Shown here: positions 8,248 to 19,144 of the stretch, piece by piece
How positions within the stretch are numbered: the stretch's first letter is position 1
Layout of the letters: the number at the start of each line of letters is the position of its first letter
Assembly: GCF_040499845.1 (NCBI RefSeq)
Contig: NZ_CP159342.1
Span: 1,860,001 to 1,924,000, forward strand
DNA: 64,000 nt
From: Micromonospora sp. CCTCC AA 2012012
GTDB taxonomy: Bacteria; Actinomycetota; Actinomycetes; Mycobacteriales; Micromonosporaceae
Reading direction: 5' to 3'
Made by a program: the position numbers and the translations under genes
The notes under the pieces: generated by a model
Told to the model about the DNA's origin: nothing
Seen by the model: only the letters and a program-made list of their open reading frames with translations
Database searches by the model: none

Positions 8248-8583
8248 ACGCGGCGGCGGCCTCGACCACGACTCGCAGCCCTCGGACCACGACAGGAGAG
8301 GGGTCGATCCCTTCGTACACCATCCTGAACCCTTACGCACAAGAACTGTCATTATGATGTACCGCCGTTTCATACCCTTTGTCCGTAGAATTTGATGGAT
8401 TGTCATTATCGGTAATCCGTTAATTGGCCGACGGCGAGGTGGAGACGGCGGCACGCGGGCGGCGCTGACGATCGCCGACGTCGAACGGATGAAGGTGGGC
8501 GCGCTGACTGACCTCGACCAGCGGACCCACCGCCGGGCGCTGAGATTGAGGTCGGCGCAGGGCGGTGGGTCCGTCGTCGCGGG
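8248..8583. other. Intergenic stretch between convergent genes with an AT-rich core
   Basis: No convincing gene is seen. Bases about 8335-8430 are markedly AT-rich for this genome. They contain the 9-base direct repeat TGTCATTAT at 8347-8355 and 8401-8409, and an inverted pair GGATT (8397-8401) and AATCC (8414-8418). Both flanking genes end here, so ordinary promoters are not expected. It could hold a small RNA or be residue of an old insertion. Confidence 0.4.
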
Positions 8584-9360
8584 CTACTCCTCCGGCTCCC
8601 AGGCGATCAGCTGGTCGAAGACGCGCCGGTCGCCCTCGACCTGCAGCGAGTCCATCGTGATGCGGCCGTAGCAGAACATGACCAGCTCGTTGGCCGTACC
8701 CCGGGCGGAGACCCACGCCGTCTCCGGGACCTCGCCGGCGACCGGCGTGGGGAGGCGGGCGGTCCGGGCGCCGTCGGCGGAGAACCAGAGGCGCCAGGAG
8801 CGGCCCTCGGTGGCGTGGTAGTCGACGACCGCGGGCTCGTGCGGCCACGGGGCCGTCGTCGCGACGCAGGTGGTCACGAACTCGTCGACACCGTCGAGGG
8901 CTACCTCGTCCGGCAGCGGCTGCGGGGCGCCCACGGCGACCTGGGCGTCGTACGTGTGCACGGCGACCTGCTGGAGCTGGTGCCGGGCGACGGCACCGGT
9001 GGTCTGCGGCGACTGCGACGAACCCCACCAGGTCCAGCACCCACGATCCGGGCCGGCGTCCCGCAGCGCGGCCAGCAGCTCCTCCGTCGACTCGGCGAAC
9101 CAGGTCAGCAGGGCCTCGCGCTCCCGGGGCACCACCGGGGCGGGGATCGCGGGCGGAGTGTCGGCGGGCCCCGCGGCCACGATGGCGGCCCACCTGCGAC
9201 GTCCCTCGCCCAGGTGCTGCACCAGGTCGAACAGTGTCCACTCGGGACAGGTCGGCACCCGCACGTCGAGGCTAGGTGCCGCGGCGACCGCCGCCCGGAA
9301 GGCGGTCGACCGTTCGTCCATCAGGCGCAGCAGGTCAGGGAACTCCAGGGTCTTCTCCAC
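8584..9360 (-). CDS. Maleylpyruvate isomerase-family, mycothiol-dependent-type enzyme
   Basis: A 258-residue protein with the DinB-like four-helix metal-binding N-domain: RVPTCPEWTLFDLVQHLGEGRRRW provides the first His, and ARHQLQQVAVHTYDAQVAVG the later metal His residues (HQ..Q..VHTYD). The C-terminal MDMPI_C-like domain ends with NELVMFCYGRITMDSLQVEGD. Members use mycothiol as a cofactor or are relatives of unknown substrate; all are cytoplasmic. It starts 60 bases after the FAD monooxygenase on the same strand. A plausible pathway is oxidation of an aromatic or polyketide-like compound by that enzyme followed by thiol-dependent isomerisation or conjugation here. The start is GTG. Confidence 0.85.
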   Translation of the reverse strand: MEKTLEFPDLLRLMDERSTAFRAAVAAAPSLDVRVPTCPEWTLFDLVQHLGEGRRRWAAIVAAGPADTPPAIPAPVVPREREALLTWFAESTEELLAALRDAGPDRGCWTWWGSSQSPQTTGAVARHQLQQVAVHTYDAQVAVGAPQPLPDEVALDGVDEFVTTCVATTAPWPHEPAVVDYHATEGRSWRLWFSADGARTARLPTPVAGEVPETAWVSARGTANELVMFCYGRITMDSLQVEGDRRVFDQLIAWEPEE

Positions 9361-14482: not shown

Positions 14483-14656
14483 ACCGGTGAGCGCGGAAGC
14501 TGTCAGGTTCAGAGAGCGGGCGGGGTCACGCGATGCTGTCCTCTGTCCTCATCAGTGGGGTCGAGAGGCAACCTAAGGGAGCGCGGAAGAAAGCCCCAAG
14601 CGGTTTTCGACCGACCGGGACTGCGGTGGCCCGCAGCGGCGACGCCGGGCCGGTGG

Positions 14657-15154
14657 TCAGCGGCGCCACCACCGCCAGGACCGGCGGCGTCGAGCCGGTG
14701 GCGCCGCCGGCGGCGGGACCGCCGCCGCAGCGGCGACGCGTTCCGCCGCCGCGCGCTCCCGGTCGGCCCGCCACCGGTGTACGACGTCCTCGACCTTGAC
14801 CGGGCGGACCGCCACCCGGGGGCCGGTCGGGGTCCGCAGCCAGGCGACGATGTCGGCGTTGAGGTCGGCCGCGTACGACCGGACCGACTCCTCCGTGGGC
14901 AGGTCGCGCACCTCGTCGGGGAGCTGTTCGACGCGGCGCCGCAGTTGCAGCGGGGTGGGCAGCAGCAGGTCGCTGGGGAGCGCCTCCCGTTCCAGGAAGC
15001 TCTTGATCCACCACGACTCGTCGTAGGGCAGCCCGCGTCCGGGGATCGGCTTGCCCGCGCCGGGCAGGTTGTCGAACTCGCCGCGTTCCTGGGCCGAGCG
15101 GATCTGCGCCTCGACCGCCGCCTCCCAACTGGTCACCGCCGTCACCTCCGGCAT
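14657..15154 (-). CDS. DUF1992 (DnaJ-related, YdhN-like) domain protein
   Basis: A 165-residue protein. The N-terminal half carries WEAAVEAQIRSAQERGEFDN followed by LPGAGKPIPGRG, the defining signature of DUF1992, with a later LREREALP-like segment (FLEREALPSDLLLPTPLQLR). The C-terminal part is a charged helix and an Arg/Trp-rich end (RRRRSWRWWRR) preceded by an Ala/Pro linker. DUF1992 is also found at the end of some DnaJ-like proteins, so a chaperone-adaptor role is possible but unproven. The ATG at 15154 is the first methionine before the signature. A perfect inverted repeat separates it from the upstream gene. Confidence 0.82.
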   Translation of the reverse strand: MPEVTAVTSWEAAVEAQIRSAQERGEFDNLPGAGKPIPGRGLPYDESWWIKSFLEREALPSDLLLPTPLQLRRRVEQLPDEVRDLPTEESVRSYAADLNADIVAWLRTPTGPRVAVRPVKVEDVVHRWRADRERAAAERVAAAAAVPPPAAPPARRRRSWRWWRR

Positions 15155-15217
15155 CCACGGTATCCGCTGATCCGGCCCGGTTCGGGGTCCGCCGCGGGCA
15201 CGACGGTCCCGGTGGCG

Positions 15218-15252
15218 CGGCCGGGCCCGGCCCAGCCGGCCGGGCCCGGCCG
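15218..15252 (-). terminator. 15-pair GC hairpin after the 15253 gene
   Basis: CGGCCGGGCCCGGCC (15218-15232) is the exact reverse complement of 15238-15252 with a five-base loop; each arm is also nearly self-complementary. It abuts the stop codon of the Cys-rich coiled-coil gene. Confidence 0.7.
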
Positions 15253-15822
15253 TCACCGCGGTCCCTGGTCCGGCCGCTTCGGCGGGTACGGGTAGGCCGG
15301 CACCTTGGCGTCGACGTCGTGCTCGGGGAGCCGCTCCGGCGCCTCGCAGCCGGTGAACCGGCACGGTGGCTCCGGCTGCTGCGGCGGGCAGCACGCGTCC
15401 ATCCGGGCCGCCGCGGCGGTGGACCGTTCCCACTCCAGGGCGCTGCCCGGGTTGACCGTCGAGTAGAGGAAGACCAGTGCGTCGAGGTCGGTCCGCATCC
15501 GCTCCAGGGCGGGTGTCTGGCGTGCGGAGTCGTTGAGCAGCGCGCAGGTGTTCCGCGCGATGCTGTCCAGCAGGCAGATCATGGTGTCGGCCTGCGCGGA
15601 GAGGTGACTCAGCACCGTGTTGGTCTGGGCCTGCAGCGCGGCGAGCACCGCCTGTCCCTGCGCCAGCACGGTGAAGCCGGCGTCGAGGTGCGCCTCGGTG
15701 TCGAGCACCGCGTCGCGGACGGCCTTCGTGGCGTTGGTGCCGGCGAGCAGGTCGGTGTGGAGTTGGTCGAGTTTGCCGTTCGACGCGTTGATCGCGTTCA
15801 GGATGTCCTGTGCCGAAGCCAT
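15253..15822 (-). CDS. Unknown helical protein with Cys/Pro-rich tail (metallopeptidase cassette)
   Basis: I do not recognise a family. The 189-residue protein starts MASAQDILNAINASNGKLDQ. Up to about residue 130 it is predicted helical with heptad-like spacing (GQAVLAALQAQTNTVLSHL and later), which suggests a coiled coil or helical bundle. The tail contains DACCPPQQPEPPCRFTGCEA with four cysteines, then a Pro-rich end (VPAYPYPPKRPD). No signal peptide is present. It is the third gene of a unit with the 15866 and 16381 genes, 43 bases downstream, and ends in a strong hairpin. A partner, adaptor or cargo of the metallopeptidase is plausible; nothing in it shows catalysis. Confidence 0.6.
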   Translation of the reverse strand: MASAQDILNAINASNGKLDQLHTDLLAGTNATKAVRDAVLDTEAHLDAGFTVLAQGQAVLAALQAQTNTVLSHLSAQADTMICLLDSIARNTCALLNDSARQTPALERMRTDLDALVFLYSTVNPGSALEWERSTAAAARMDACCPPQQPEPPCRFTGCEAPERLPEHDVDAKVPAYPYPPKRPDQGPR

Positions 15823-15865
15823 CGGAGCCTCCGTGGGTGCGGTGGGGTGGTTCGGGATGATTCGT

Positions 15866-16393
15866 TCAGGGCGTGTGCGGCGGACGGGGCTCGTCGGGTC
15901 GGGACGGCGTCACCCGCTGCACGTCGAAGTGGGCCTGCTCGCGCATGTGCCGCACGCGTGCCTTCGGGTCGAGGTCGAGCGGCGGCTGGAACGGCGTCGG
16001 GCTGCTCGCGATCCGGACCTGTGTGTGGTCGATCGCGCCGACCGCGACGCCCGGACGGGCGATGCTGGACAACCCGCCGCCCCGGTTGTACTGGTGGATC
16101 GAGGCCGGGACGACGGTGCTGAGTTCGCCCTCCTCACCGGGGGCGAGGACGACCTGGTGCGGGACGAACGGGTGCGCGGAGACCACCACGATCCCGGGCC
16201 CGGGATCGTCGTCGTGGGGCACCCCGAAGTCGACCGAGAGCACCCGGCTGCCCGGGTCGTACGACAACCCGCTGAGCTCACCCGAGACGTGGAGCTGCGC
16301 GGACGTGTCGTTGCGGATCACCACCCGCAGCCGGCGCGCCCCCGACGCGTCGGCGTCGTCGAGCCGGACCGCCACCACGCTCACCTTCGCCAT
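15866..16393 (-). CDS. Unknown beta-rich protein overlapping the metallopeptidase gene
   Basis: A 175-residue protein with no family I recognise. It starts MAKVSVVAVRLDDADASGAR and is mostly predicted strand (RLRVVIRNDTSAQLHVSGEL, SRVLSVDFGVPHDDDPGPGI), as in Ig-like or C2-like sandwiches. A calcium-friendly acidic loop DDDPGPG and the later PLDLDPKARVRHMREQAHFD are notable. Its start overlaps the end of the metallopeptidase gene by 13 bases, with a GGAGGGAGC ribosome site inside that gene, so the two are translationally coupled. The product may bind or present the peptidase. No signal peptide is visible. Confidence 0.6.
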   Translation of the reverse strand: MAKVSVVAVRLDDADASGARRLRVVIRNDTSAQLHVSGELSGLSYDPGSRVLSVDFGVPHDDDPGPGIVVVSAHPFVPHQVVLAPGEEGELSTVVPASIHQYNRGGGLSSIARPGVAVGAIDHTQVRIASSPTPFQPPLDLDPKARVRHMREQAHFDVQRVTPSRPDEPRPPHTP

Positions 16394-17616
16394 GCCGAGC
16401 TCCCTCCGAGAAGTGTCCGTTCCACCAGGGCTACCCGGTGGCGTAGCGCGTCGGGCGTGGCCGTCAGGTCCGGGGCCTGCTCCAGCCACCACGCCACGAT
16501 GCGCTCCCGCAGCGCGGCCGGAGCGGGCGCCCGCCCGGCCAGCCGCACCCCCCAGTAGGCCCGCAGCGGACGGATGATCGCCCACTGGGTGAGGGGCAGC
16601 CGGTCGTCGACGAGTCGACCACCCACCAGGCCGTCGCGCGGGCCACGGTCGAGGACGACGTCGACGACCTGCGCGGCGAGCCGTTCGCGCGGCGGACCGG
16701 CGCCGACCGTCGTGGCCAGCGCGTCGGCGAGGACGGCGTCGACCGCGGCGACATCGGGCCAGGCGCTCAACGCGTGCAGCAGCACCGCGTAGACGGACAG
16801 CAGCGGCTCCACGACCGCCTCCCGGTACGCGTCGCGCAGCGCCGGGTCGAGCCACAACCGCCGGGCGATCCCCGGACTGTACGAGTAGTACTCGCGGTAC
16901 AGATCCTCGAAGAGCGCGTACCCCACCGGGAGGACCCGCACCGCGAGGTCGCGGACCAGCCGTAACGCGTCCACGGACCGCTGCGCGTCGGCACCCATCG
17001 CCGCCGTGACCACGAAGCAGTCGATCTGCCAGTCGCCCGAGCTGCTGCCGGGGCTGCCGCAGCCGCCGTTGTGGCTGGTGGTGAGCCGCAGGTCCTCGCC
17101 CTTGGCCGATCGGGCGACGTTCTCGTCGGTCTCGGCCGCCTGTTCCTCGGCCGCGCTCGTGGCCGCGACGGCGCTGTTGACGATGTGCCAGGCGTGCGAG
17201 AGTTCGTGATAGAGAATGATCGCCCGGGGAAAATCGACGTGGCTGCCGGACTGGCCGTCGACCCAGTATCCGGAACCGTTGCACATACCGACGTCGTACG
17301 CGACCCGGACAACGGTGTCACCGGTGGACGTCGTGTCGGTGAACGTTTCCCCGGCCACCGCCGTGATCGCATTTCCGTCGGGCAGGACGAAGGAACTCGG
17401 CACTCCGGAGACGACGATGTCGCCGGTCGAGTCGACCAGTGCCTTGATGCGTTGCGACACGGCGTCCGCGCCGGGCGAGGTGTAGGTCAGCCGCACGATG
17501 TCGGTGAAGCCCGTGACGTTGACCTCGCCGAGGTCACCCGAGCCGCCGGTCAGTGACGTGAAATCGGCGAAGACCTGATCGGAATTGCCGAAACCGACGT
17601 CGATGTACAGTGCCAC
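16381..17616 (-). CDS. M91-like zinc metallopeptidase of unknown role
   Basis: An HExxH peptidase of about 411 residues. The motif is AIILYHELSHAWHIVN near residue 142, followed by EEQAAETDENVARSAKGEDL. This spacing and the Glu/Asn-Val-Arg stretch resemble family M91 (NleD-type effector peptidases and bacterial relatives). The N-terminal third is strand-rich and Thr/Ser-rich, and the C-terminal half is helical. There is no signal peptide. The second GTG at 17616 is chosen because AGGAGG lies five bases upstream; the first GTG at 17622 overlaps that site. It leads a three-gene unit with two unknown proteins. Secretion by a contractile or other device, or an internal regulatory role, are both open. 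Confidence 0.65.
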   Translation of the reverse strand: MALYIDVGFGNSDQVFADFTSLTGGSGDLGEVNVTGFTDIVRLTYTSPGADAVSQRIKALVDSTGDIVVSGVPSSFVLPDGNAITAVAGETFTDTTSTGDTVVRVAYDVGMCNGSGYWVDGQSGSHVDFPRAIILYHELSHAWHIVNSAVAATSAAEEQAAETDENVARSAKGEDLRLTTSHNGGCGSPGSSSGDWQIDCFVVTAAMGADAQRSVDALRLVRDLAVRVLPVGYALFEDLYREYYSYSPGIARRLWLDPALRDAYREAVVEPLLSVYAVLLHALSAWPDVAAVDAVLADALATTVGAGPPRERLAAQVVDVVLDRGPRDGLVGGRLVDDRLPLTQWAIIRPLRAYWGVRLAGRAPAPAALRERIVAWWLEQAPDLTATPDALRHRVALVERTLLGGSSAWRR

Positions 17617-17919
17617 ACGCACCTCCTCTCCGAGGTTGGTCGAGTGGTGCCAGGCTATTTGCGCCGGTCCGCCATTTCGGTCGGCGAGCCGACATGAGGG
17701 AGGTCGGAATTCCGGCGCAGGGCCGCCGGAAACAGTCGACGGAATTATGTGATCGACCGCAGGAAATTTGCGCCTCGGCGTTCTTTCCGCCGCCGGGGGT
17801 CAATTCCGGCCGGCGGCACGGGACCCGCGCGCACGGCGGGCGGCGGGGTGTCGGCGTACATTCCAGGTGGGCCGCCGACCGGTCGGCCCTCGTACCGGTG
17901 GACGGGAAGGACCGGCGGC
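17617..17919. other. Divergent intergenic region, metallopeptidase cassette / DUF1232 gene
   Basis: About 300 bases with no gene I can support. It should contain promoters for both directions. On the minus strand CAAATAGCCT near 17655 gives a TANNNT -10 (TAGCCT), but I could not find a convincing -35. GC content is lower than in the flanking genes. Confidence 0.35.
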
Positions 17920-18420
17920 GTGCGCGACTGGCTGATCGGCCTGGGTGTGGCGGTGGCCTGCCTGCTCGCCAGCTGGGGGCTGCTGGTGCTGCTGGCGCGG
18001 CGGCTGCCCCCGGGCATCCTGCGGGACCTGGCCGCCTTCATTCCCGACTGCCTCACCGCCGTCCGGCGGCTGCGCCGCGACCCCCGGGTGCCGCGCCGGG
18101 CGAAGGTCGTCATCGTCTTCGCCGGGCTCTGGCTGGCCAGCCCGATCGATCTGATCCCGGAGTTCCTGCCGGTGATCGGGCCGCTGGACGACATCGTGGT
18201 GGTGGCCCTGGCGCTGCGCTACGCGGGCCGGCAGGTCCCCCGGGAGGTGCTGCTGGCCGCCTGGCCCGGTGAGCCGCGGCTGCTGCTGCGCCTGCTCGGC
18301 CCCGCCACCGACCGCGCCCCGGCGGTCGACGGCGACCCGGGCACCGGCCCCGCCCCGGCCACCGATGGTGGTCCGGCGGTCGGCGGGCCGGCCACCCGCG
18401 GCGGCGCGGTCGACCGCTGA
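17920..18420 (+). CDS. DUF1232 (YkvA-like) membrane-associated protein
   Basis: A 166-residue protein from GTG 17920. The first 25 residues form a membrane helix (WLIGLGVAVACLLASWGLLV). Then comes RRDPRVPRRAKVVIVFAGLW with LASPIDLIPEFLPVIGPLDD, the unmistakable DUF1232/YkvA signature (SPIDLIPdFiPViGylDD). The tail after residue 125 is Ala/Pro/Asp-rich and probably disordered. The family's function is unknown. It is followed after 7 bases by the TauE/SafE gene, and both are likely one transcript. The start is the GTG preceding the membrane helix; longer upstream reading is Arg-rich and unlike homologs. Confidence 0.8.
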   Translation: MRDWLIGLGVAVACLLASWGLLVLLARRLPPGILRDLAAFIPDCLTAVRRLRRDPRVPRRAKVVIVFAGLWLASPIDLIPEFLPVIGPLDDIVVVALALRYAGRQVPREVLLAAWPGEPRLLLRLLGPATDRAPAVDGDPGTGPAPATDGGPAVGGPATRGGAVDR

Positions 18421-18427
18421 CCCGACG

Positions 18428-19144
18428 GTGGGCGCCCTGCTGGCCGCGTCGGCGGCGGCGTTCGTCCTGGCGGCGCTCTCGGCGGTGACCGGCTTCGGCG
18501 GTGGGGTGCTGCTGCTGCCGGTCTTCACCGCGCTGTTCGGGCTGCGGGTGGCGGTGCCGGTGCTGACCCTGGCCCAACTGTCCAGCAACGGTGCCCGGGT
18601 CTGGCTGAACCGGCGGGAGTTGCGTGGTGACCTGGCCGGCCGGTTCGCCCTCGGGGCGGTGCCGTTCGCCGTGGCCGGGGCGCTGCTGCTCGCGCACGCT
18701 CCCCTCGCCGCGCTGAAACGCCTGCTCGGGGTGTTCCTGCTCGCGGTGGTGGCCTGGCGGCACGGGGGCCGGCGCCCCCGTCGCCCGACGGGCCGGACCT
18801 TCGTCGCGGTCGGCGCGGCGTCCGGGATCGGTTCGGCGCTGCTCGGCTCCGTCGGCCCGCTGACCGCGCCGTTCTTCCTGGCGTACGGGCTGACCCGGGC
18901 CGCGTACGTGGGCACCGAGGCGGCCGGCGCGCTGACCCTGCACGTGGCGAAGACCGTCGGCTACGCCGCCGGCGGCCTGGTCACCCGGGACGTGGTGCTG
19001 CTCGGCGCGGCGTTGACCCCGGCCACCCTCGCCGGGGCGTGGGTGGGCCGGCGGATCGTCGGCCGGCTCAGCGACCGGCTCTTCGTGCTGCTGGTCGAGG
19101 CGGGGCTGATCGCGGCGGCGGTGCTGTTCCTGGCCGGGTGGTGA
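18428..19144 (+). CDS. TauE/SafE-family membrane permease
   Basis: A 238-residue protein with about eight hydrophobic helices. The first carries ALSAVTGFGGGVLLLPVFTA and a matching repeat near the middle carries GAASGIGSALLGSVGPLTAP. This two-repeat arrangement is typical of TauE/SafE (DUF81) permeases, which export sulfite, sulfoacetate or related anions. The substrate cannot be assigned. GTG 18428 lies 7 bases after the DUF1232 stop. It ends 7 bases from the convergent acetyltransferase gene. Confidence 0.82.
   Translation: MGALLAASAAAFVLAALSAVTGFGGGVLLLPVFTALFGLRVAVPVLTLAQLSSNGARVWLNRRELRGDLAGRFALGAVPFAVAGALLLAHAPLAALKRLLGVFLLAVVAWRHGGRRPRRPTGRTFVAVGAASGIGSALLGSVGPLTAPFFLAYGLTRAAYVGTEAAGALTLHVAKTVGYAAGGLVTRDVVLLGAALTPATLAGAWVGRRIVGRLSDRLFVLLVEAGLIAAAVLFLAGW

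Follow-up and report, generated by a model that had tools for sequence, protein, structure and literature searches.

The window analysed here is a stretch of 64,000 nucleotides from the genome of Micromonospora sp. CCTCC AA 2012012, in which the minus strand carries, from position 17616 down to 15253, three genes in the order P-B-H, encoding a zincin metallopeptidase (P), an immunoglobulin-like (Ig-like) beta-sandwich protein (B) and a helical, cysteine-rich protein (H). The three genes occur together, diverge in a correlated manner and are held under purifying selection, and distant bacteria have acquired them as a unit. A protease complex is their likely product, and we place at about one half the probability that they constitute one co-inherited accessory module making a self-contained complex of this kind. 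No described counterpart of the P-B-H set was found in the literature and family libraries searched, in agreement with the first-pass annotation of this DNA, which knew of no system of such composition.

Partnership of the three genes

A search with a P profile and exact peptide words, covering 84,980 species with one genome apiece, returned 12 loci. Together with the window, two further Micromonospora genomes (G013 and G074) and G1118, which came from the H search, these bring the total to 16 P loci (genomes and loci are denoted by G and L numbers). The first-pass annotation had staked its cassette on the genes keeping company elsewhere; homologues of H and B adjoin P in 15 of the 16 loci, and the remaining one (L006) stops inside P. 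The window, L002 and six database proteins supplied the H profile and so match it by construction, the other matches being independent; within the loci the next-best open reading frame (ORF) reached only E 0.38. Similarly, the B profile rests on the window, L002, L008, L011, L013 and L014, matched by construction, and is independent of the remaining loci; the B genes of L008, L011, L013 and L014 were first found via a profile resting on the B of L002, and the match in L005 is weak (E 0.0049).

Gene spacing is tight, with 25 of the 26 junctions in 13 loci lying between −35 and +43 nucleotides and one at 199 nucleotides, some starts having been chosen by hand. Pairwise distances correlate across 11 loci (near copies L004 and L009 excluded), with r values of 0.89 for P-B, 0.73 for P-H and 0.60 for H-B; values as high arose in 0, 0 and 3 of 10,000 permutations, respectively. 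Two gene orders, P-B-H and H-P-B, divide the P tree with a single change (16 rows of known order, 10 rows uncounted), and B directly follows P in both. Micromonospora holds both types, the window grouping with P-B-H loci and G013 with the H-P-B loci of Proteobacteria; the P tree therefore departs from the species tree. We regard the partnership of P, B and H as firmly established.

All three genes of the cassette proposed in the first pass were confirmed as ORFs in the window. P (16381..17616, minus strand, as are the other two genes) is supported by its ORF, an AlphaFold2 (AF2) model, fold matches and the ratio of nonsynonymous to synonymous substitution rates (dN/dS). Two GTG codons could start it, at 17622 (413 residues) and at 17616 (411 residues, the end given in the first pass), and the latter is preferred because homologues begin MALYID and the spacing to AGGAGG fits. 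B (15866..16393; 175 residues) is supported by its translation, homologues adjoining P, an AF2 model and dN/dS; its start lies inside the end of P, an overlap that the first pass had also noted and that measures 13 nucleotides. H (15253..15822; 189 residues) follows after a gap of 43 nucleotides and is supported by its ORF, homologues adjoining P and B, and dN/dS. Compared with the near relative G074, amino-acid identity is 89% for P, 91% for B and 97% for H, and dN/dS is 0.19, 0.18 and 0.11, respectively. Given the low dN/dS and changes that fall mainly at third codon positions, we take P, B and H to be real genes under purifying selection.

Distribution, insertion and mobility

The module is accessory and mobile. 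Full-length P is present in 3 of 151 Micromonospora genomes, and H in those same three; the P model matched seven of the 151, the other four comprising a different CFI-box protein (G120) and matches around HExxH only (G004, G035 and G092). In a sample of the phylum, P matches were obtained in 5 of 396 genomes, full length only in the window's own genome and otherwise around the CFI box (G228, G522 and G346) or in the C-terminal part (G250). Around G571, 1 of 297 genomes of its phylum matched H; the corresponding counts were 4 of 294 for the G567 family (two of these matches being fusions), 2 of 360 for the G576 class and 2 of 205 for the G577 class, the latter two sets each including one chance-like match; all of these counts include the centre genome itself. 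The H matches in G1319 and G1591, short and weak, are read as chance. As the genome searches scored part of the first-look candidates per genome, the rarity is a fair estimate rather than a census.

Six corresponding sites were fetched from relatives. In L029, L031 and L030 the cassette is missing and its neighbours adjoin, with gaps of about 58, 62 and 100 bp; L033 retains both flanks with ~770 bp between them, and only one of the two sides gave a match in L032 and L034. Because the neighbours adjoin in cassette-free relatives, the inserted unit can be delimited to ~2.64 kb, approximately 15195..17835, comprising the three genes, ~220 bp upstream of P and little else. The right neighbour is a DUF1232 gene; the left, judged by eye, is presumably DUF1992. 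No mobility gene or terminal repeat was identified at the cassette, target duplications having been looked for in one alignment. Plasmid searches yielded no relatives of the window P, of H protein P0017 or of the L014 P, phage searches none of the window H or the L014 P, and viral contigs none of P; a phage or plasmid origin was accordingly rejected within the searches made.

A GC hairpin lies directly after the H stop codon (15218..15252, minus strand). The strong closing hairpin of the first-pass annotation stands as a folding result in the window (61 nucleotides, −47.2 kcal/mol, z −3.15, equalled by 1 of 200 shuffles), but the region yielded no terminator-like site and the G074 counterpart is weaker (z −1.88 over 61 nucleotides, 0.06 over 101), leaving the hairpin unsupported as a conserved part of the cassette. 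An Rfam scan of 14500-18500 detected no conserved RNA.

Properties of the three proteins

P comprises an N-terminal catalytic domain, a CFI box and a helical C-terminal part. The zinc motif, HELSH at 17194..17208 (minus strand) in the window, is HELSH or HEMAH in all 26 P rows; the H, E and H positions are invariant in 25 of 25 rows besides the truncated L006, which likewise has HELSH. The first-pass annotation had described P as M91-like. Passages of PMC6367388 include in M91 the type III effector NleD, which cleaves JNK and p38, and give an RxxY downstream of HExxH as a feature of M91 and M27. The HExxH and a local profile match are common to P and M91: Pfam PF14891 is matched by 24 of 26 rows at E <= 1, and precomputed database annotation places it on three of nine P relatives. 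The window P, however, scores 20.2 bits, short of the cut-off of 25, over residues 131-170; RxxY has no conserved place downstream of HExxH, the best column holding it in 6 of 26 rows; and P carries an extra CFI box, ~140 further residues and the partners B and H. By these sequence criteria the P family appears to border on M91, and the M91 label for the window P itself is weak.

The AF2 model of P has a predicted local distance difference test (pLDDT) score of 83, and its fold matches are bacterial toxins and effectors, in a comparison that barely covers the part beyond residue 252 and that leaves folds outside its tables possible; L002 rows were left out of the structure alignments. Clostridial neurotoxin light chains (M27) share the zincin fold at about 9-17% identity, whereas the translocation and receptor-binding domains of the neurotoxins would lack room in P (411 residues), B (175) and H (189); the fold match shows no toxin activity of P. 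The CFI-box-like domain (residues 202-271; 16810..17019, minus strand) has a pattern, CxI/V..A.GS...LR..RD...YY..SP, like that of CFI-box-CTERM proteins (NCBIfam NF041770). In those proteins the box is C-terminal, whereas in P it is internal, followed by the ~140 residues mentioned above, and scores 35.5 bits (39.1 by genome search), below the curated cut-off of 40; it is nonetheless matched in 26 of 26 rows at E <= 1. A stretch after the box (residues 261-286), helical in the window model, is moderately hydrophobic (>1.6) in 13 of 26 rows. Elsewhere, the CFI box was observed in G120, of the same genus, on a protein (L019:133-1983) resembling by eye an M14 carboxypeptidase, and in L023, L024 and L025 on further unrelated proteins. 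In Rugamonas a second, diverged P with HEMAH directly follows H, giving the order P-B-H-P′ (L003:11464-12861, L004:11458-12849 and L009:11548-12993).

The AF2 model of B (pLDDT 79.8; predicted template modelling score, pTM, 0.77) is an Ig-like beta-sandwich whose general arrangement is common to ApaG, a DUF1425 member and the Bacillus subtilis intracellular proteinase inhibitor (3isy). The last is among the Foldseek matches of B (E 0.024), and a role of B as protease inhibitor is, on this model comparison, only a lead.

The H family comprises at least 217 clusters. The window protein, called Cys-rich in the first pass, has six cysteines, with a CCPP..C..C motif at residues 144-159 (15346..15393, minus strand); CCP is kept in 132 of 133 aligned rows. 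The tail carries G[Q/L][D/N]W in 89 of the 133 rows and a C-terminal Gly in 100; the window H ends in Arg and has no such motif. At the Paraliomyxa locus L012, H (8444-8860) is 138 residues long with no cysteine, and P and B are full length. In two genomes of the family to which the Rugamonas genome G567 belongs, the H core is fused N-terminally to a propeller-like protein (L046:6730-8637, 635 residues; L047:4224-6152, 642 residues); neither P nor B lies in the stretch fetched, and these fusions do not have the conserved tail. On three plasmids, an ORF for an 80-residue polar protein stands ahead of a relative of the propeller-like protein (L049:3645-3887, L050:3607-3849 and L051:3621-3863). 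The two Ruegeria ORFs are alike and the Streptomyces one is not obviously so; as H acting in trans, these ORFs were rejected after comparison.

Proposed function and alternatives

In the proposed self-contained complex, P would be the working part, an active zinc protease cutting a specific protein. H, helical with conserved cysteines and a conserved tail, would serve as an adaptor or scaffold placing P; favouring this reading, other genomes carry the same H core fused to a different protein. B may stabilise P, present its substrate or restrain it until needed. The complex would act in the cytosol of the producer, or leave by an unrecognised route, since no export signal is evident: the absence of signal peptides noted in the first pass agrees with the lack of a hydrophobic N-terminus (Kyte-Doolittle >1.6 within the first 45 residues) in 26 P, 13 B and 19 H rows, on a simple and crude hydropathy scale used instead of a signal-peptide program. 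Our guess, from the patchy horizontal distribution, is a role in conflict, as toxin or defence, over housekeeping.

Alternatively, B and H could serve as chaperones or loading factors for a P that is injected or released as a toxin and acts in another cell. The inclusion of NleD in M91, the toxins and effectors among the fold matches and the patchy spread across phyla are consistent with such an effector, whereas the lack of a hydrophobic N-terminus and the absence of relatives from the phage, plasmid and viral-contig searches made argue against it. Neither the listed ORF starts nor the 25 of 54 flank families listed showed secretion genes next to the cassette. Of 14 cassette genomes, six, the window's own included, scored above cut-off for a contractile sheath (PF04984), and eight lacked it or stayed below cut-off, some of the genomes being drafts; the L006 genome was not included and G1118 was not yet known at that stage. 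Although all three Micromonospora cassette genomes have a sheath gene, that of the window genome (G000:C1:2542496-2542720) lies ~665 kb from the cassette, and the earlier suggestion of cargo for a contractile device fails as a general rule. On balance, we consider an effector of this kind unlikely.

A role in anti-phage defence, in which H would sense infection and release P to cut host or phage proteins, is harder still to credit, though the cassette is sporadic, horizontally moved, minimal and of cytosolic type. Its flanks were scanned in 10 of 11 loci (L003-L005, L007, L008 and L010-L014; L009 is a near copy of L003), covering 85 of 164 ORFs, others being dropped by hand. PADLOC matched 19 families in these ORFs, each with one member, so that no defence family recurs and a defence island was rejected. 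The Cas matches alone were placed: in Streptomyces sp. NRRL WC-3742 (L005:4709-8145), the Type I-B genes for Cas7b, Cas8b and Cas6b stop ~0.85 kb short of the cassette, on whose other side lies an ORF that looks transposase-like by eye. Single matches of unplaced locus to mad2, mad3 (E 5.3e-36), mad8, AriA, ATPase-Toprim and MTase_II also favour defence, yet may represent ordinary genes. The six proteins of the window and L014 had no strong match in PADLOC-DB (2023 library), the best (0.0033) falling on a coiled-coil-like stretch of H.

Under a third alternative, which we judge improbable, P would process H at its Pro-rich, Gly-ending tail, H being the functional product and B a helper. The conservation of the tail and the lowest dN/dS of the three genes favour maturation of H, but the window H ends in Arg and the propeller-fused H has neither the tail nor a P nearby. 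No maturation enzyme was seen to recur in the flanks, where only Peripla_BP families (three members) and Lipase_chap (two) recur among the 25 of 54 families listed. Finally, chance neighbours or non-gene ORFs, for all that GC-rich DNA yields many spurious ORFs, are refuted by the 15 of 16 co-occurrence, the purifying selection and the correlated distances.

Beyond the self-contained complex, we tentatively raise a broader possibility, on balance doubtful, that H represents an undescribed class of carrier domain recruiting or loading different working proteins: in trans a protease together with its Ig-like partner, as in the present cassette, and in cis a propeller-like protein (G1095 and G986). 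On this view, P-B-H would be a variant of a new effector or immunity module that crosses phyla and moves as a bare three-gene unit. If so, H would offer a route to further effectors. For the unnamed H and B families, the association provides a fixed partner with an enzyme fold that can be recognised, and thereby opens their function to testing; the cassette is also small enough to express whole and is present in named isolates. As P, M91 effectors and neurotoxin light chains have a fold in common, the module may also bear on the roles that such proteases had before they became toxins.
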